A DNA stretch of 64,000 bases from Candidatus Brocadia sapporoensis (GTDB lineage: Bacteria > Planctomycetota > Brocadiia > Brocadiales > Brocadiaceae), in contig NZ_MJUW02000018.1 in assembly GCF_001753675.2 (NCBI RefSeq), positions 1 through 64,000 of the forward strand, in the 5' to 3' direction. Shown here piece by piece: positions 17,476 to 26,249 of this stretch. Every line of letters starts with the position of its first letter. Positions within the stretch are counted from its first letter, which is position 1. A program made the translations under genes and the position numbers. The notes beneath the pieces were generated by a model. The model was not told where the DNA came from and did no database searches. It saw only the letters and a list, made by a program, of their open reading frames with translations.

Positions 17476-18601
17476 AATAAAAAATGGAAAAAATCATGCC
17501 TTCCCCTCTACGATCTCAATTTCCTCAGGTGTGAGACCGTAAAGTTTGTAAACCATTTGGTCAATCTGGCGTTCAAGAACAGCGGTGTCGGCATTGGGGT
17601 CTTTTTGCTTTGCGGCGAGGATTTGGTCAACGAGATCAATAACCGGACGCTGATCCCGATGAGAAATTCTCGGAACGGGGATTTTACCAACATAATAATT
17701 ATCGAAATCCATTGTTCTAATTGCGGCACAAAAAATAAACTTGTAGGTATACCAGCTTGTAAATGTCGAATTTAATAATGCTAATATATATCGATAATCA
17801 TACTGTTTATCATTGATTATAGTATTTTCAACTGTATCAACACTTAAAACGTTACCTTGAGAGTCGTAAGCTGACATAATCATAATGCGCGGTACAGGAT
17901 TCTGAATGTGGGCTACAAGCCTTTGTGAAATAATTTTCGGTTGTTGCATGAAGGATAATTTGTTCCGTTCACCTCTAAGAACATCTTTTGATAAATATCC
18001 TTTTACACCGTTACATCCGTATCTAAAAATGTTTTTCCCACCTATAACAGGATAATCCCCTTCTGGAGAAAGATATTTTTGAAGTCCAACACCTCTTTTC
18101 GTTTCTGAAATATCCTTCATGTAAACGCAAGCTGTTTTTAGATTTTCTACGATTTTTAATTCTTTTTGAGTTACGTCGCATATCCATGCTTTGTATCTCA
18201 GAACAAGATCATTGGGAACATTTGTCGAGCGGACAAATTCATTGTCTAAAAGTTTTCTTGCTAAATATTTTTTCATATGGATTGACTTGCTATAAACGAA
18301 TACTACCTGTTCCAGTTTTACGTTTTCAAAGGCTTTTTCAACGTCCACAAGGATACTGACGTTTCCGAGCATTGATTTAACAAGACTAAACCAGTTTTCT
18401 GAATAGAGAAGCGATTTAGGTACGATAAAAGTAAGCGTTCCTTTTTCTCCTATTAATCTGTTCTTGCCATAATCGATAAAAATTGCAGCACTGTTTGAAT
18501 TAGTCGTATCTGAAAGATTCTGTTTTGTCTTTTTTAGCGCGACTCCATCAATTTTGGCTCCATATGGTGGATTTGCAATAACCACATCAAATCCCCAACA
18601 A

Positions 18602-18630
18602 CCCCCTGTATCCCCTTTTGCTAAGGGGGA
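18602..18630. repeat. In-frame palindromic insert in methylase gene
   Basis: CCCCC and GGGGG arms with a CCCCTTTTG centre form an imperfect palindrome that reads in the methylase frame as NSPLAKGDTGG. This peptide is what the widespread non-coding repeat with a CCCCTTTTGC core encodes when translated. It sits between a predicted helix and the NPPY-containing segment GFDVVIANPPY, where a loop would be expected. Confidence 0.6.
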
Positions 18631-19019
18631 ATTGGAGGAGGCATGAAACACTTCGGAAAAATAAATCTCAAAATCAAATTCTTTATGACCATTGGTGATC
18701 TGGCTTATCAGTTCATCAATCTGCTTTTTATAGTCTTGCTTTTTTGTGGGGTTGGTTTCGTTGAAGTAGAGTGGTTTGATTTTTTCCAGTTTAGAGAAAA
18801 GATGACTGTTAAACAGGTTTTTCTTCACTCCCAAAAGCGAATTCCCGCAGACAATCTTGTAATCCAGATTGGGCAGGGGCTTGATGTTTTTTATGTCATC
18901 TTCATCTACCACAAGCGATAACCACAGCCGGAGTTTTGCAATCTCCACGGCGCCGGGGTCGATATCGACACCGTAAAGGGAGTGTTCGATGCAGTGGCGT
19001 TTGAAGTTGTAGGTTGAGC

Positions 19020-19752
19020 GTAGCACAGACATTCTTGTCTGTGGTCTATCTGGCTCGGACATTATTGTCTGTGTATCTTTGGGCTGATCACTGGCAGGAA
19101 TGCCTGTGCTACCGTGATATAACCAATACTTATCCTCTGATAAATTGGCTTTAACTGGATTTTCAGCAATGTAACGGATAAAGCGCTGATATTGGGCTTC
19201 ACTGCGAACGATATGATCATAGGATTCATCCATCCAAAATTTGCTGCCCGTTGTTCCTAACATCTGATTTATTTTTCTTGCACTCGCGCCTTTGATTCCT
19301 TTTAGCAATTCAGAAAGTGAATTGCCTGCCAATGGTTCAAGAAGGAGATGAACATGATTCGGCATGATGACCGCTGCATGAAGTTGCAGCCTTTCCTCAT
19401 TGAACCGCAAGAGACATTCCTGAACAATCCTTCGAACTTCCGGTTGTGCCAGTACACATGAACCGTAGCCTGAATCAAGCCAACTTTCCAATCTCTTTTC
19501 AAATTGTTCACCGTATTCTTTCCATTCTGTTTCACTCCAGGGCTCACGATGTTTGCTTATCCAGAGATCGCGTTCGTCTTTCCATGTATTGAGTTTTTCC
19601 TGAGGTAGTGAATCGGCAAGGCGAAAGGTGATCCAGTAAATAGAGCCTTCCTTTGTCCAATGAGGCAAGTTGCGACGGGTTATGGTGGTGACACAGACAT
19701 TCCTGTCTGTGGTAGTATCATTATTATCACAGACAGGAATGTCTGTGTCACC
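19020..19752 (-). mobile_element. REP-associated tyrosine transposase (RAYT) unit inserted in frame in the methylase
   Basis: About 733 bases. The coding part reads as a Y1-type HUH transposase (TnpA_REP family): WITFRLADSLPQEKL, then the HUH motif MPNHVHLLLEP, then KFWMDESYDHIVRSEAQY and FIRYIAENPVKANL, with a candidate catalytic tyrosine in the latter half. Both flanks are structured. At 19687-19752 there is a perfect 25-base inverted repeat (arms start GGTGACACAGACATTCCTG). At 19020-19112 an inverted pair of GTAG-headed hairpins shares the ACAGACATTC core. These are the REP/BIME elements that RAYTs recognise. The whole unit, REPs included, has no stop in the methylase frame. Confidence 0.88.
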
Positions 19753-20046
19753 ATCACCCTTAAAATAAACCATAAGTGCATTTCTTGCCTTTACAATTTC
19801 ATTCATCATGCCCACGGGAAAGGCGCCAGAACCTACCGCCGGGTCGCAGACGGTGATGTCTGCCAGCTTTTGATCGATCAATATGGCATTCTTGCGAATG
19901 CTTTCAGGCAGTTTTACTTTGTAATCCGAAGATTTCTGTTTTCCCTCTAAGATTTTTTGTTCTTTGATTAATGCGGTTTCTTCATTCTCACTAACCTGCT
20001 CGCCGACATGTATAAGGGTTTCAATGTCCTCTTTGCTTACCTTATT

Positions 20047-20079
20047 AACCCTGACAGGGTTTGAAACCCTGTCAGGGTT
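20047..20079. repeat. In-frame 33-base perfect palindrome, copy 1
   Basis: Arms AACCCTGACAGGGTTT and its complement around a single G, 33 bases (11 codons), encoding DRVSNPVRV on the methylase strand. It lies in a loop-like, low-conservation stretch before SKEDIETLIHVGEQ. It is identical in design to the copy at 20185 and related to that at 23596 in the helicase gene. Confidence 0.88.
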
Positions 20080-20184
20080 GGGATCAATCCTTAAGTCCAA
20101 CTGCCTCTGTTTGTCTTCTTTGGCAAATATAGACAACTGTTTTCCGCCTAATATTTGATTGGAGGCAATGCCGTTTTTTGACTT

Positions 20185-20217
20185 AACTCTGACAGGGTTT
20201 GAAACCCTGTCAGAGTT
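20185..20217. repeat. In-frame 33-base perfect palindrome, copy 2
   Basis: Arms AACTCTGACAGGGTTT and its complement around a single G. It differs from copy 1 by one base in each arm, and the two changes compensate (C to T in the left arm, G to A in the right), so the perfect hairpin is kept. It encodes DRVSNPVRV like copy 1. Confidence 0.88.
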
Positions 20218-20750
20218 GGAATTAGAATCGGCCAATTCTGTATGCAGGTAATTTATCAGGCTCTGCTGGCACATATAGTGGACAATCTCACGGGGTGTGT
20301 AATAGACGCCATATTGCTTGTTGAATTTGCTTTCTTCGCCTTTTTTCCCGCTCTTTAATGCCTTCTTGTATTCTTCAAAGTTATCAGGGCGGATAGCGTT
20401 GAACTTTTCATACGCCTTGCCCAAAAGTTCTGGGTCAATGGCAACTTCCTTTTCCAGCGGCTCGTCTTCTCTGACGGTAAAGTTGTAGCGGTCAAAAATA
20501 TCCAGAATGCCATCACCCTTGTCACCTTCTTTGGTCTTGTTTTTATTAGAGAACAGGCTGTCCGGTATACAGATATCGGTATGCACCCAGTCGTAGCCGC
20601 CGTTGCTGCCGATGGGGTCAAAGAGGCCACCGTTTAAGAAGGGGATTTTGCAGTTAAAACGGCTGTAATAGTGATCATCATGGCTGCGGTCGATGCGCAG
20701 GGCTTCGTAAAAGAGCGGCTCCAGGATATCATTGAAGAAATTTATAGTAT

Positions 20751-20769
20751 CGCAAGCATCCTGCTTGCG
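20751..20769. repeat. In-frame short palindrome
   Basis: A perfect 8-base inverted repeat (CGCAAGCA / TGCTTGCG) with a 3-base loop, translated as RKQDACD in the methylase frame. It is 16 bases from the next palindrome at 20786; the pair forms a small cluster in the segment before NFFNDILEPLFYEAL. Confidence 0.65.
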
Positions 20770-20785
20770 GTTTGTATTGGTTGAG

Positions 20786-20804
20786 CTCAGGCTAAAAGCC
20801 TGAG
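20786..20804. repeat. In-frame short palindrome
   Basis: A perfect 8-base inverted repeat (CTCAGGCT / AGCCTGAG) with a 3-base loop, translated as TQAFSLSS on the methylase strand. The core AGGCT..AGCCT is shared with the palindrome at 20978, which suggests the same REP family. Confidence 0.65.
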
Positions 20805-21650
20805 TTACTCTTTTCTCAAAAAGCTCACGCAAAAAGCGTTTGGAGCCTGTGCCCCATGCGGCATCACGGGCAACGCCGAACCAGCCTTTTTCTGTAAAAA
20901 ATAGAGAAAGACAATTTGGCCAAAGAGTTTCTTGGCGAAGTTTACGGTATCAACCCCCTTCGATTTAAATTCATTCTGCAGGCTGGAAGCCTGCGCTACT
21001 ATCTTGTCCAGTTCTTCTTTTGTGCGGATGAAAAGTTCACGGTATTTGATGAAAAATTCTTTGGTAACGGTCTCAATATCAAATGCCTGTTCCAGTTCGG
21101 CAAGGGTTGGACTATGTTCATCATTTGCGAGGATGTCCACCAGTCTGCTCTGGGCGGTATGGCTGTTTTCATTTACGCCAACCAGGAATGACCACCGACG
21201 TGCAGGGGTGAACTCTTCCTTTACCTTCATCCTACCGGTTTGAGCTTGTTCAAACTTATAGTCCATCTTGACCAGTGAAAATCGCCAGTCTTTCGCATCG
21301 GGGGATACAAAGGCAACCAGCGCCGCATCCTTCAGTTCACCGCCACGGCTGCCGTTCAGATACCATGCAACAAAATTGCGCTGCATGGTGCGGGCGCGTT
21401 CAAGGGAGGTCTCTTTCTGGAGTTTTACGATAAGCATATCAATCCTGTTTTCACCATCATTGAATTTACCAATTCGCTCCAGACTGCTGATATATGCCTT
21501 GTAGGCATCGGGGACGAACTGACCCTGGTAAGTAAACGAGGCTTCTTCAATTCGCTTCAAAAGGTTTTTGATAAAACCGACAAACCTCTCTTTATCAAAA
21601 GTACTTTCAAAGGTTTCTCTGATAATGTTTTGTGCCTGATGTTTATCCAT
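20805..21650 (-). pseudogene. Eco57I-type restriction/DNA methylase, N-terminal part (frameshifted)
   Basis: 281 codons that form the N-terminus of the methylase at 17494-20832. They run from MDKHQAQNIIRETFESTF through a predicted helical/nuclease-like region (ENRIDMLIVKLQKE, then RARTMQRNFVAWYLN) to KKLFGQIVFLYFLQKK, where the frame is lost. Adding one A to the five-A run at 20887-20891 (coding strand) would continue as GWFGVARDAAWGTGSKRFL into the downstream frame, which looks like the expected family sequence. The IDMLIVKLQKE stretch could be a PD-(D/E)xK-like nuclease core, but that is uncertain. The start lies 3 bases after the AlbA_2 gene's stop. Type IIG-like enzymes combine cutting and methylation in one chain. 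Confidence 0.8.
20978..20994. repeat. In-frame short palindrome (GTAG head on minus strand)
   Basis: A 7-base inverted repeat (GCAGGCT / AGCCTGC) with a 3-base loop. On the minus strand it is preceded by GTAGC, the REP head. It is translated as AQASSLQ in the N-terminal methylase frame, between KEELDKIV and NEFKSKGVD. Confidence 0.65.
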
Positions 21651-21653
21651 AAT

Positions 21654-23051
21654 CTATTTTTCCGGCAGTCTCATGAGGTACTTTTTGCCTTTACCCGTCA
21701 GCCGGTATCTCTGAAGCCTGCTCTGCGGCTTTTCCGGGATAGTCATTTCTATTAGCCGGTAATGTATCGCTGGTCGTATATAGCTGTATAGAAATGTAGG
21801 GCGGTGTGACAGACCAAGCCTTCGCATAAGTTCGCTGCCACTCAATGTTTCTCCCCGCAGCGATAACAACAGCCTTTCTACTTGTTCGGTGACTTGTTCG
21901 GTGACTTGTTCGGTGACTTGTTCGGTCTTCTTGAAAACAGTGACCATAAAGCCGCCGCTCATTTCCTTGAATTCAGGAGTTGGAAGTCCGTATTCCTTAA
22001 ATCCATTAAGTATTCTTTTAATGCCTGAGCCGTATTTCTCTATCAAACCAGCAGATTTAAAGGCTTCTGCAATCTTCTTGTTGCGGGCGATTGAAACATA
22101 ATCACCCTTTAAAAGCTTGGCTATAGTAAGCCCGTTGGGCAGCTTGCCGGCGTTAAAAAATTCGATTTTATTATCATAAACCTTGATTATAGAGTCCGCC
22201 GGACTTGTGTAGTCCCTGTGTATAATTGCATTAATGACTATTTCACGGATTGCATTAAGCGGATAATCCCATCGTTCTTCCCGCTGCGGCTTGCCGGTAA
22301 TAATGTATGCCTTGTTGATATGTTTTTTAATAAAATCCATAACGCCCTCTACCTCTGAAAAGAGGTCGGCTTTGAGAGTGGCGCCATCCTTGATAATGGT
22401 ATCTGTCTGAAACCTGCCGAGTTCTATGGTGCTGATACCCGATTCTCCTGCCATAAAAAGGAGAAAGCCGGCGTAGGTTATTTTGCCTTCGCGCATCAAT
22501 TCAAATTTTTGTAATACTGTCAACGGGTCATCCAGAATAGGATTCTCTCTGTTTGTATTGGTACGTTCAATGAATTTTTGAATCTTATCAAGCGAAATGT
22601 CTTTTTCGGAGTGATGCTCATCAATATGAAAGTCCCAGCTTGAGTTGAATGTCCTGAGGTGTAAATTTACCACTTCTGACACAGACAACTGGTGGTTTGC
22701 ATTTTTGAAGCGTTTGTAATATCTCCCCTTGCACGCAACAGGCTTTATCGGTGATTCCTGCACAGAAAAGATTACAATATTTTTCTTTTTGATTGTTCCA
22801 ATCTCAACATCAGGTATTATTGCATGTGATGTGTCTTGTTTGACATGATTAATCCAGTTTTGAATAGTCTCTTTGCCGACTTCCGTTCCTTTTATCTCTC
22901 CTTTATCGGATACGCCAATAAAAACCTTGCCGCCGCTGGTATTGGCAAAGGCTACAAGGGTTTCTATAGCTTCCCGGTCAAAGCTGAGTTTGAATTCAAC
23001 TGTCTCAGACTCTCCGACATTAAGCATCTTTTTAGTTTTTGTATCTATCAT
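21654..23051 (-). CDS. AlbA_2 (Schlafen-like) ATP-binding protein with winged-helix C-terminus
   Basis: 465 aa. The N-terminal AlbA_2 domain (ESETVEFKLSFDREAIETLVAFANTSGG, then VFIGVSDKGEI) is the divergent AAA_4/Schlafen-type domain seen in many defence and regulatory proteins. The middle NAIREIVINAIIHRDY with GSGIKRI is the GHKL-like HATPase_c_4 region. A linker of four TEQV repeats leads to a winged-helix end (SGSELMRRLGLSHRPTFLYSY). The gene is sandwiched between the helicase (0 bases apart) and the methylase (3 bases), so it belongs to that operon. It may be its regulator or an accessory effector; the sequence does not decide. Confidence 0.85.
   Translation of the reverse strand: MIDTKTKKMLNVGESETVEFKLSFDREAIETLVAFANTSGGKVFIGVSDKGEIKGTEVGKETIQNWINHVKQDTSHAIIPDVEIGTIKKKNIVIFSVQESPIKPVACKGRYYKRFKNANHQLSVSEVVNLHLRTFNSSWDFHIDEHHSEKDISLDKIQKFIERTNTNRENPILDDPLTVLQKFELMREGKITYAGFLLFMAGESGISTIELGRFQTDTIIKDGATLKADLFSEVEGVMDFIKKHINKAYIITGKPQREERWDYPLNAIREIVINAIIHRDYTSPADSIIKVYDNKIEFFNAGKLPNGLTIAKLLKGDYVSIARNKKIAEAFKSAGLIEKYGSGIKRILNGFKEYGLPTPEFKEMSGGFMVTVFKKTEQVTEQVTEQVTEQVERLLLSLRGETLSGSELMRRLGLSHRPTFLYSYIRPAIHYRLIEMTIPEKPQSRLQRYRLTGKGKKYLMRLPEK
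21880..21927 (-). repeat. 12-base tandem repeat, four copies, coding TEQV
   Basis: Four head-to-tail 12-base units (ACTTGTTCGGTG on the plus strand, the last with one change) inside the AlbA_2 gene, giving (TEQV)4 in the protein. They form the linker between the ATPase-like part and the winged helix. Copy number at such repeats can change by slippage without breaking the frame. Confidence 0.9.
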
Positions 23052-26000
23052 TTATTTCCCCGTCAGATACATAGACAAAATAACTTCCCGCTTGCCAAAT
23101 ACCACAGGGTTCTGTTCTGCGTAATGTTCTTCCAGGAGTCTTGCCGGGATGTGGGTCTGAAGCACTGCCAACACCTTGAACGGGTTAACGATTTCATTCG
23201 TAAGTGCATTCAGGGCCTTCAGCGTTTGGATTGCCGTCTGTTTGGGCAGTCCCCCTTCCTCAAGTTGTATCAGGACTTTTTTCAGGTACAGTTCCTGGTC
23301 TTCTGTCAGTTTTTGTGTATTCTTCAGGGTCGCTTTTAAAATTCTCAGGATATTTGCAGCGCTGTCACGTCCGCCCTTTTGCCCGTGATGCGGCATTTCC
23401 TCCGTTGTCGCCAAAATAAATGCCTCTTTATTTTTTTCCAGGAGTTCGTAAAAATGTTCGGGGAGTTTTTCCTTCGTTTCATCAGGACTGCTCTCCAGCA
23501 GTTTTGCCGCAGACAGGAAATCCATTTCTTCCCCCATATTTTTAATGTCGGCTTTAAAAAACTTCTGCAGCTTTCCCCGTCTGAAGTAAGTAATTAACCC
23601 TGACAGGGTTCCCAACCCTGTCAGGGTTTTGGCGGTGCGCGCCTTTTTGGGAAGACGTTTTATCCTTTCAAAGAGGTCGGGGGCTTTATCGCGAATCTCT
23701 TTTATCACCTGGAGGTACTTCAATTCGCTTTCCCCAGATTCTTCCTCACCTTCCAGTGTCTGTTTGGAAATCAACCGGTTAAAGAGTTCGTGCGAGCCAA
23801 TCGGCTCTCCTTCGGTCAAAAGCTCTGCGTCTCCGCCAAGCAAGGTTAAAAAGGCATTGATTTTCACCTCTGCCGCTTCTTTCAGTTTTATCTGGTCATT
23901 TGATTGTTTGGTCGGGAAAAAATTAAAGGTATGGATCTTGTCAAATGGCGTATCAACACGGTTAACACGTCCTACCCGCTGCATCATGCGGGTAGGATTC
24001 CAGGGGATGTCGTAATTGATCACGGTATTTGAGCGGTGCAGGTTAACACCCTCAGCCAATACTTCAGTAGAGACCAGTATCCGATAATCTTCTTTCGGAT
24101 GACGTGCCCGGGCGTCAAAATTTTCAATGACCTTGTCGCGGGTTGTCTCACCAGAATCTCCGGTAAAACACAACACCCTATCAGGATATTGCTGGTTTAT
24201 GTTTTTAAAGAGATAGTTTGCGGTTTCCCTTGATTCGGTAAAGATAATCAGATGATTTTCTTTCAAAACAGGATTTTTGGATAGTTCCCCCAAAAATCTT
24301 AAAAGCTTTGGGTCTCGGTCAACGTGATGCCATAGTTGTTTAATCTCGAGGAGAAGGTCATGGTCGTGTTGCAGGTCTGCCCTTAAGCCTTCCTTAAATT
24401 CACTGCTTGCATATCTTTCCGCCTTGCCTTCGTCTATCAATCGCTGGACGGCTTCATCGTCATCGTTCTCAAGGAGTTCAAAAATTTTATTCGTGTGCTT
24501 TTTACTTACATACACATTGCCGTTATCAAACTCTTTTATAAACATCTCGTAAGAGCGCAGGAATCTGTCCACCGAATTTTTAAAGGCGAAAAAACTGCTT
24601 TCAAGACGCTTCACCAGCAGGATTTTCATAAACTTGCCCATATTTCTCTGGGACTGCTGTTCAAGCTGGCCAACTTTACCTTCATAATAAAGCATGGGCA
24701 TATAACGGGCGTATTTGAATTTTTGCGCTATCAATTCTATGGTTTTGTTGAATATCTCGTCCTCCCTATCATTGAGTTCGTAAAAAAGGGGGACTGGCCT
24801 TTCAACATCAGGGAATTTAAGGTTTTGGCTCTTTATGTCTTCACCGAAATATTTTTCGATCTCTGTTCGGGTACGTCGAACCATTAAATATTTGAGGACT
24901 TTTTCTCGTATTTCCCGCGCATTTTCTTTTACCGTATTTATGTATTTGGCATAATCCTTCTGCCGGTCCAGTTTTTTCAACTTTTTATCCAGGCCATGAA
25001 AGAAGCCTTCAAGGTCAGGAAGATTTGGGATAGTGCTTTTTCTGGCCTTTTGAAATAGTTTTAAAAGGCTCAAAATATCTTTTGGCGCATTGTTATAAGG
25101 CGTAGCCGTTACAAGAACAACCCTTTTACCGCGGCAGATTTCCGCCAATTTTTCATAGGTAACCGTTGTTTCGGTTCTAAAACGGTGCGCCTCATCAATG
25201 ATAATATTGGTGTATTTCTCTGTCCCTCTGTCAACAAGGTCATCCAGTTTGCCCAGAGATTCAAAGTCTGCCGGCATCCTGAAATCAGAAAAGACATTGG
25301 GCCATGAACCGGGGTTTGATTTTTCGAGAAGCACGGGCGGGGCAATGACAAGGGTTCTGCCGTCAAGCTGACCCGCCAGCATTGCCGATATGTACGTCTT
25401 GCCTAAGCCAACAACATCAGAAATGAAGACACCTCCATATTCCAGAAGTATTTTACGCGCATTTAAAACGGCCTGTTCCTGATATTCCAGTTTTTTAAAT
25501 TTTTCGGGAAGATATTTTAAAAACACTTCATCTGTCTGACCGAGTTCGTCTTTGAAATACTCATATAAAAATTTCAGATACAATTCATAAGGAGTAATCG
25601 TATGGTTCAACCAGGTTTTTATTTGAATGGTGTCAATATATCGTTCCCTTACATCAACTGCGTCTTTCCATAATTCATTAAATTTTTGTAATGCGAATTC
25701 ATAGTCTGCCCTGTTTTTTAACTCGACATTAAACTCAAAGTTATCGATAAGACCTGATTGGGTAAAATTGCTCGACCCGGTAATCACCCTACCAATATCC
25801 CTGTCGCCTGCAACGAAGGTCATGATGTAAAGCTTTGCGTGAATATTTTCCGTCGGATACGCCCTGATTTCCAACCTTCCACTTTTAAGCCATTCCGTAA
25901 ACTTAAGGATACCTTCTTCAACAGGGGAATTATCTTCAGAATTCTCTACTTCTTCAGCGACAGATTGTTCGAATTGTTCTTTTACTTCAGAGTGAGAGTA

Positions 26001-26249
26001 TTGGGGGATTGGCCGATCATCGATTTTTGCTTTTTGGATGAGTTCTGTTGCTCGTTTGTTTGTGCTTATTCCGATAAGAATCCGGATCTTTTCGGTATTA
26101 TCCAGAGATTTGTAGATGGCATGAAACCCGCTGGTATAGAAATAACCAACAAGCACATCAAAAAATTGGGTGTCTTGAATGAGCACCCTGAATCTTTCTT
26201 GCAGGTTTTTATTTTCTTCGTTGGTGATAAAGGTGAGGTCAGAGTTCAT
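23052..26249 (-). CDS. PLD-nuclease/SF2 helicase fusion of a restriction-type defence operon
   Basis: 1065 aa. Residues about 1-200 form a phospholipase-D-like domain with a HAKLY ... GSSNFTQSGL (HKD-type) motif. A SNF2/superfamily-2 helicase core follows: Walker A VVGLGKTYISAM, DEAH box IIIDEAHRF, TATPYNNAP, and the C-terminal lobe with STEVLAEGVNL and QRVGRVNRVDT. The last 250 residues are helical. Such proteins translocate on DNA and act with methylases in phage defence. It is first in the operon helicase - AlbA_2 - methylase. A 33-base palindrome is inserted in frame near residue 875 (KTLTGLGTLSGLI). The start ATG at 26249 overlaps a short upstream ORF. Confidence 0.9.
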   Translation of the reverse strand: MNSDLTFITNEENKNLQERFRVLIQDTQFFDVLVGYFYTSGFHAIYKSLDNTEKIRILIGISTNKRATELIQKAKIDDRPIPQYSHSEVKEQFEQSVAEEVENSEDNSPVEEGILKFTEWLKSGRLEIRAYPTENIHAKLYIMTFVAGDRDIGRVITGSSNFTQSGLIDNFEFNVELKNRADYEFALQKFNELWKDAVDVRERYIDTIQIKTWLNHTITPYELYLKFLYEYFKDELGQTDEVFLKYLPEKFKKLEYQEQAVLNARKILLEYGGVFISDVVGLGKTYISAMLAGQLDGRTLVIAPPVLLEKSNPGSWPNVFSDFRMPADFESLGKLDDLVDRGTEKYTNIIIDEAHRFRTETTVTYEKLAEICRGKRVVLVTATPYNNAPKDILSLLKLFQKARKSTIPNLPDLEGFFHGLDKKLKKLDRQKDYAKYINTVKENAREIREKVLKYLMVRRTRTEIEKYFGEDIKSQNLKFPDVERPVPLFYELNDREDEIFNKTIELIAQKFKYARYMPMLYYEGKVGQLEQQSQRNMGKFMKILLVKRLESSFFAFKNSVDRFLRSYEMFIKEFDNGNVYVSKKHTNKIFELLENDDDEAVQRLIDEGKAERYASSEFKEGLRADLQHDHDLLLEIKQLWHHVDRDPKLLRFLGELSKNPVLKENHLIIFTESRETANYLFKNINQQYPDRVLCFTGDSGETTRDKVIENFDARARHPKEDYRILVSTEVLAEGVNLHRSNTVINYDIPWNPTRMMQRVGRVNRVDTPFDKIHTFNFFPTKQSNDQIKLKEAAEVKINAFLTLLGGDAELLTEGEPIGSHELFNRLISKQTLEGEEESGESELKYLQVIKEIRDKAPDLFERIKRLPKKARTAKTLTGLGTLSGLITYFRRGKLQKFFKADIKNMGEEMDFLSAAKLLESSPDETKEKLPEHFYELLEKNKEAFILATTEEMPHHGQKGGRDSAANILRILKATLKNTQKLTEDQELYLKKVLIQLEEGGLPKQTAIQTLKALNALTNEIVNPFKVLAVLQTHIPARLLEEHYAEQNPVVFGKREVILSMYLTGK
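23596..23628. repeat. In-frame 33-base palindrome in helicase gene, copy 3
   Basis: Arms AACCCTGACAGGGTT and AACCCTGTCAGGGTT around CCC, 15+3+15 bases. It is the same family as 20047 and 20185 but read in a different codon phase, giving TLTGLGTLSGL. It lies between KKARTA and YFRRGKLQKFF in a likely loop of the C-terminal region. Confidence 0.88.

Follow-up and report, generated by a model that had tools for sequence, protein, structure and literature searches.

A REP-associated tyrosine transposase nested in frame within a type IIG methylase gene of an anammox bacterium, and recurrence of such nesting in unrelated host genes

REP-associated tyrosine transposases (RAYTs, or TnpA_REP) cleave and join the single-stranded DNA of REPs. 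They are typically free-standing genes with a start and a stop of their own, and a dispersed family of cognate REPs is typical of them, though not universal. Inteins and homing elements are known for in-frame or same-site residence. To our knowledge, selfish DNA in protein genes has been thought to need either splicing (inteins, introns) or great shortness (Rickettsia palindromic elements, or RPEs, and REPs). REPs lying inside tnpAREP genes with the frame kept have already been published (Quentin et al. 2018, PMC6006769), and unexpectedly long proteins were left out of that RAYT survey as fusions or annotation errors (PMC6006769). Intragenic REPs, or GTAG repeats, are palindromes in coding regions, including those of many DNA-repair genes and some tRNA-synthetase genes (Di Nocera et al. 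2013, PMC3733652); the described cases extend to Opitutus terrae of the Verrucomicrobiota (PMC3733652). RPEs are selfish palindromic DNA found in frame within ORFs that likely encode functional proteins (PMC3733652). In the open-access literature searched, we came across no report of a complete RAYT lying within another gene, in line with the original prediction for this locus, whose author knew of no description of the nested form.

The window, by which we mean the whole analyzed stretch of 64,000 nucleotides, comes from the genome of an anammox bacterium (2.93 Mb in 123 contigs, encoding hydrazine synthase alpha). It contains a RAYT nested in a type IIG methylase gene, with the following features.

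17494-20832, minus strand: ORF of 1112 aa without a stop; C-terminal ~80% of a type IIG/Eco57I-type methylase, including the nested RAYT
20805-21650, minus strand: N-terminal part of the type IIG enzyme in another frame (PDLC03596 profile positions 1-257)
20887-20891, minus strand: A-run of 5, where relatives have a six-base run or AAGAAA; this difference of one base parts the two ORFs
19114-19677, minus strand: nested RAYT (TnpA_REP) domain of 188 aa, with HUH (HVH) and tyrosine (YIAENP) motifs intact
19683-19756: REP-like inverted pair on the 5' side of the RAYT, in-frame reading DTDIPVCDNNDTTTDRNVCVT
19020-19112: REP-like inverted pair on the 3' side of the RAYT, with GTAG/CTAC feet, in-frame reading GSTGIPAS...TRMSVL
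20047-20079: short palindrome in site A (see below), in-frame reading DRVSNPVRV
20185-20217: second copy of the site-A palindrome (DRVSNPVRV)
About 18600-18630, 20740-20805, and about 20975-20995: further in-frame short palindromes of the methylase

The window element has the core features of a RAYT. Its Y1_Tnp match (Pfam, 1.8e-9) lies between the host matches of the ORF (Eco57I, 1.9e-24; N6_Mtase; TaqI_C), and the Y1 core, with its HUH motif and single catalytic tyrosine, is flanked by GTAG-type REP hairpins, the foot of the 5'-side pair being a GTGA-like variant. Folded as single-stranded DNA, positions 19675-19765 reach -35.2 kcal/mol (z = -11.9), and positions 19000-19125 have a z of -3.9. 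An open frame, hairpins on both flanks, and a domain match of 188 aa are together far beyond chance. The element is not a free-standing gene, as it has neither a stop of its own nor an ATG near the RAYT start. These observations bear out the original prediction of a complete RAYT in frame, with structured REP flanks on both sides. The same prediction proposed that the element could bring the REPs it controls, which finds no support here: a pattern search of its own genome placed the exact palindrome at this locus alone, giving no dispersed REP family, and the two one-mismatch sites elsewhere equal the control level.

The host gene is a type IIG enzyme broken upstream of the RAYT. PADLOC assigns it to this class (PDLC03596), and it combines an Eco57I/N6 methylase with a TaqI-like specificity domain and matches PDLC03596 lengthwise, but over two frames. 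The upstream ORF encodes the first ~256 residues because the A-run at 20887-20891 is one base short: the window reads CAGAAAAAGG, four relatives (L066, L073, L075, and L076) read CAGAAAAAAGG, and L072 reads CAGAAGAAAGG, so that the run is one base shorter than in every relative checked. Either one base has been lost, or the assembly is in error, or the run is a slippage site. The methylase frame originally described is indeed stop-free through the RAYT and its flanks, but this ORF covers less than the full enzyme, owing to the frameshift upstream. Because of this frameshift, the gene that holds the RAYT of the window may be decaying or wrongly assembled. The element could even be just a transposon within a methylase that has lost its function and is decaying, its open frame a recent coincidence, as the upstream break and the two-frame homologues of relatives (G010, G025, G012, and G018) would allow. 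We consider this explanation fairly unlikely, since 1112 aa stay open with the hairpin ends included, one homologue has its RAYT at the same site with no break in the frame, and the same nesting is found in apparently sole-copy essential genes (both described below).

Several further features accompany the gene. The upstream neighbors on the same strand (21654-26249, minus) encode a Schlafen/AlbA_2 + Fic-like_C protein and a PLD-SNF2 helicase, and look like a defence operon; a 12-bp tandem repeat in a neighbor gene (21880-21926) codes EQVTEQVT. Besides the two copies of DRVSNPVRV, the methylase contains more, unrelated short palindromes in frame (NSPLAKGDTGG, QAFSL...KQDACD, and QASSLQN), and part of its short palindromes sit in loops where other homologues have RAYTs. 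The type IIG homologues L077, L078, L079, and L081 each occupy two overlapping frames, with split positions that differ; these splits may reflect decay, phase variation, or assembly errors.

Alignment of type IIG homologues reveals two insertion-prone loops, site A and site B, the latter being that of the window RAYT. The aligned insertion point (DPAVGSGAF...KARNALMVYF / RAYT / RSTYNFKRH...YGVDIDPG) agrees with the one first proposed, between SAM motif I and YGVDIDPG. Site B is empty in L072, L074, L115, and L117, and carries short, mostly palindrome-coded inserts in L066, L073, L075, L076, and L080. These empty or short-palindrome sites are the uninterrupted homologues expected if, as had been supposed, the RAYT is an insertion. 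They also reveal an RPE-like pattern, in which a frame-keeping palindromic insert at site B is absent from L072 and L074. RAYTs occupy site A in L066, L115, L117, and L119. The nearest RAYT to that of the window is L115's, about 76% identical, and it lies at site A. In an Ignavibacteria MAG (L118), site B holds a RAYT 65% identical to that of the window, in a frame unbroken from the protein N-terminus, on a contig that stops just past the RAYT. In the 3' flank of the L117 RAYT, QTQTGMSVLP is repeated about nine times in frame, which is a tandem expansion of REP units within the coding frame.

Two simpler accounts of the architecture can be set aside. Empty homologues and RAYTs at two different sites rule out the RAYT as an ordinary part of the methylase family, and host halves on both sides of it rule out a gene fusion at one end.

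Nesting of the kind first noted in the window is not a one-off, but recurs in many hosts and phyla. We searched 392 genomes of the phylum and the genome_contigs collection with a profile of six nested RAYTs and, after removing duplicates, compared 118 distinct full-length RAYT peptides. Nesting in frame within long ORFs was found for 47/118, a frequency biased by a search profile itself built from nested RAYTs; the other 71 are not nested or are cut by contig ends. Nesting was defined as an open frame with at least 75-90 aa per side, which makes the stop-codon contrast partly a matter of definition. Pfam analysis of the nested frames indicates that the RAYT often splits a domain of its host. 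DNA methylases (Eco57I/type IIG, MmeI-like, DUF1156, and N6_N4) make up 19 of the 47 hosts, counting L125 on a sub-cutoff Pfam match. The others include FabZ-like proteins (n=6, with L102 and L103 assigned by sequence), class I/II tRNA synthetases (n=4, LeuRS and AlaRS among them), and HsdR (n=2). PriA, CCA/polyA polymerase, CarB, and an ADH-GFO oxidoreductase are each represented twice, and ExoVII, UDG, a DinG-like helicase, MetH, UxaC, adenosine deaminase, a radical SAM protein, and a flavoprotein once each. According to record titles, the hosts span at least eight phyla: Planctomycetota, Verrucomicrobiota, Kiritimatiellota, Ignavibacteriota, Bacteroidota, Chlorobiota, Chloroflexota, and Pseudomonadota. 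In the anammox relative G009, three different methylases each hold an in-frame RAYT (L066, L067, and L068), with differing REP flanks.

In several genera of one family, FabZ-like dehydratases share the position of their nested RAYT (L043, L096, L097, L101, L102, L103, and L098).

Many of the genomes with nested RAYTs are MAGs, and REP repeats break contigs, as at L118, L116, and L070, which stop within the RAYT or close to it. Assembly chimeras of metagenome bins might on these grounds account for the nesting. This is scarcely credible, however, given that nesting also occurs in a 4.1-Mb assembly of 4 contigs (G015) and in records without a MAG label (L131, Chloroflexales ZM16-3; L150, Pontiellaceae B12227), and that orthologous nested forms are present in independent assemblies.

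Several features suggest that nested RAYTs have adapted to lying within coding sequence. An ATG near the RAYT start is present in only 5/47 nested RAYTs versus 47/70 others (Fisher p = 5e-10). Catalytic motifs are retained: HUH is intact in 47/47, and 45/47 keep the Tyr motif. Flank hairpins accompany 38/47, and left and right flanks have common 11-mers in 42/47, versus 3/44 host controls. Wherever dS is estimable, pairwise dN is well under dS in the compared nested pairs. A check within the nested host families found no antisense RAYT insertion, and one sense RAYT with a broken frame (L123).

Some nested RAYTs reside in essential enzymes. The sole AlaRS match of one genome (G121) is a 1209-aa frame (L208) with its RAYT in the editing domain, just ahead of ELCGGTHV (KVRVLTMG / RAYT / FSMELCGGTHV). 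Similarly, the sole strong LeuRS match of G429 is a 1102-aa frame with a RAYT in the editing domain (L209), and in both proteins the host sequence runs on normally either side of the RAYT. The sole two-ATP-grasp CPSase (CarB) frame found in G433, of 1380 aa, also bears a RAYT. These RAYT-bearing AlaRS, LeuRS, and CarB enzymes are apparently sole copies, within the bounds set by the completeness of the three genomes.

Tolerance in essential enzymes would be readily explained if the RAYT were removed after transcription, by protein splicing, an intron, or ribosome bypass, leaving host proteins without it; inteins and homing elements behave alike in their in-frame or same-site residence. We regard such removal as very improbable. 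No intein- or intron-related domain appeared in any Pfam scan, the flanks are REP hairpins instead of splicing domains, and removal from RNA or bypass would need no open frame across the whole element. An intein in particular is ruled out, as the splicing (Hint) domain is absent from Pfam scans of the window and the scanned nested relatives.

Both spread and vertical descent appear to have shaped the distribution of nested RAYTs. On the RAYT tree, nested and other labels interleave, with at least 9 changes on well-supported branches and 25 by parsimony. Some same-site RAYTs are far closer than their hosts: dS is 0.08 for the RAYT versus 0.87 for the host in L069/L070, and 0.15 versus 1.40 in L115/L117. 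Host identity in L069/L070 climbs toward the insert, which suggests recombination that carried flanks along. Three other pairs (L128/L136, L129/L152, and L153/L157) have RAYT divergence similar to that of the host, a pattern indicative of vertical descent rather than mobility. With some same-site RAYTs closer than their hosts and other pairs diverging with them, the sequences indicate that nested RAYTs probably undergo both.

The nesting might also reflect domestication, with hosts, methylases above all, having taken up the RAYT as a module for DNA binding or regulation and keeping it for their own benefit. The share of DNA methylases among hosts, the low dN relative to dS, and the FabZ-RAYT architecture in several genera of family f31 are consistent with this. 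Domestication is nonetheless unlikely, because hosts are unrelated (FabZ, MetH, UxaC, and CarB), sites vary within one gene (A and B), empty homologues are common, and REP-like ends are retained.

By sequence profile and by fold, the best PDB match of the nested RAYTs is 4er8 (TnpArep in a RAYT-REP complex). AlphaFold models the RAYT domain confidently in a CCA-RAYT protein (blocks mostly 75-97) and with moderate confidence in the window protein (pLDDT mostly ~60-87); with shallow alignments, the models of the host parts were uninformative in both. The nested RAYTs share with RAYT/TnpA_REP proteins the HUH and Tyr core, the NHVH and YIxxNP motifs, and GT[AG]G-type hairpin flanks, and are nearest to RAYT subclass 2.4 by its description (Quentin et al. 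2018, PMC6006769). Unlike published RAYTs, they are nested whole in other genes, lack a stop of their own, and usually lack a nearby ATG. Intragenic REPs are short, coding for at most 82 aa (PMC3733652), whereas nested RAYTs include a complete transposase. RPEs resemble nested RAYTs as selfish palindromic DNA placed in frame inside ORFs, but are short and have no transposase inside. Inteins and homing elements are comparable in that they too reside in frame within essential and nucleic-acid enzymes, with same-site copies closer than the hosts; nested RAYTs differ from them in lacking a splicing domain and in having REP hairpin flanks and a single-strand HUH transposase.

Taken together, we think it quite probable that the REP-RAYT element is compatible with coding sequence, inserts in frame, and is translated as an internal domain of its host. 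A HUH/tyrosine single-strand transposase with hairpin REP ends would enter the type IIG gene in frame, at an insertion-prone segment resembling a surface loop. Across the nested set, the full length, including the palindromic ends, is open in the host frame. Because the whole element is open in that frame and has no stop of its own, it would be carried and expressed, without splicing, as part of a single polypeptide. We propose that the insert is tolerated because the host folds around the RAYT, in which case host and transposase may both be active; a methylase that may still work had been part of the original prediction. The element would spread through REP-guided single-strand transposition, through same-site recombination, or through both. 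More tentatively, and with some doubt on our part, a transposon lineage could live as unspliced internal host domains, spreading into the same loops in a homing-like manner, with essential enzymes expressing a transposase mid-protein.

If true, selfish DNA in protein genes would have a further solution, in which a whole transposase with no splicing domain is tolerated as a domain of proteins such as AlaRS, LeuRS, or CarB. This would explain how REP-RAYT elements persist without a promoter of their own, with their survival tied to indispensable genes. It would also warn annotators that long “fusion” proteins dropped from surveys may be real, and nested RAYTs would mark natural insertion-tolerant loops in enzymes.
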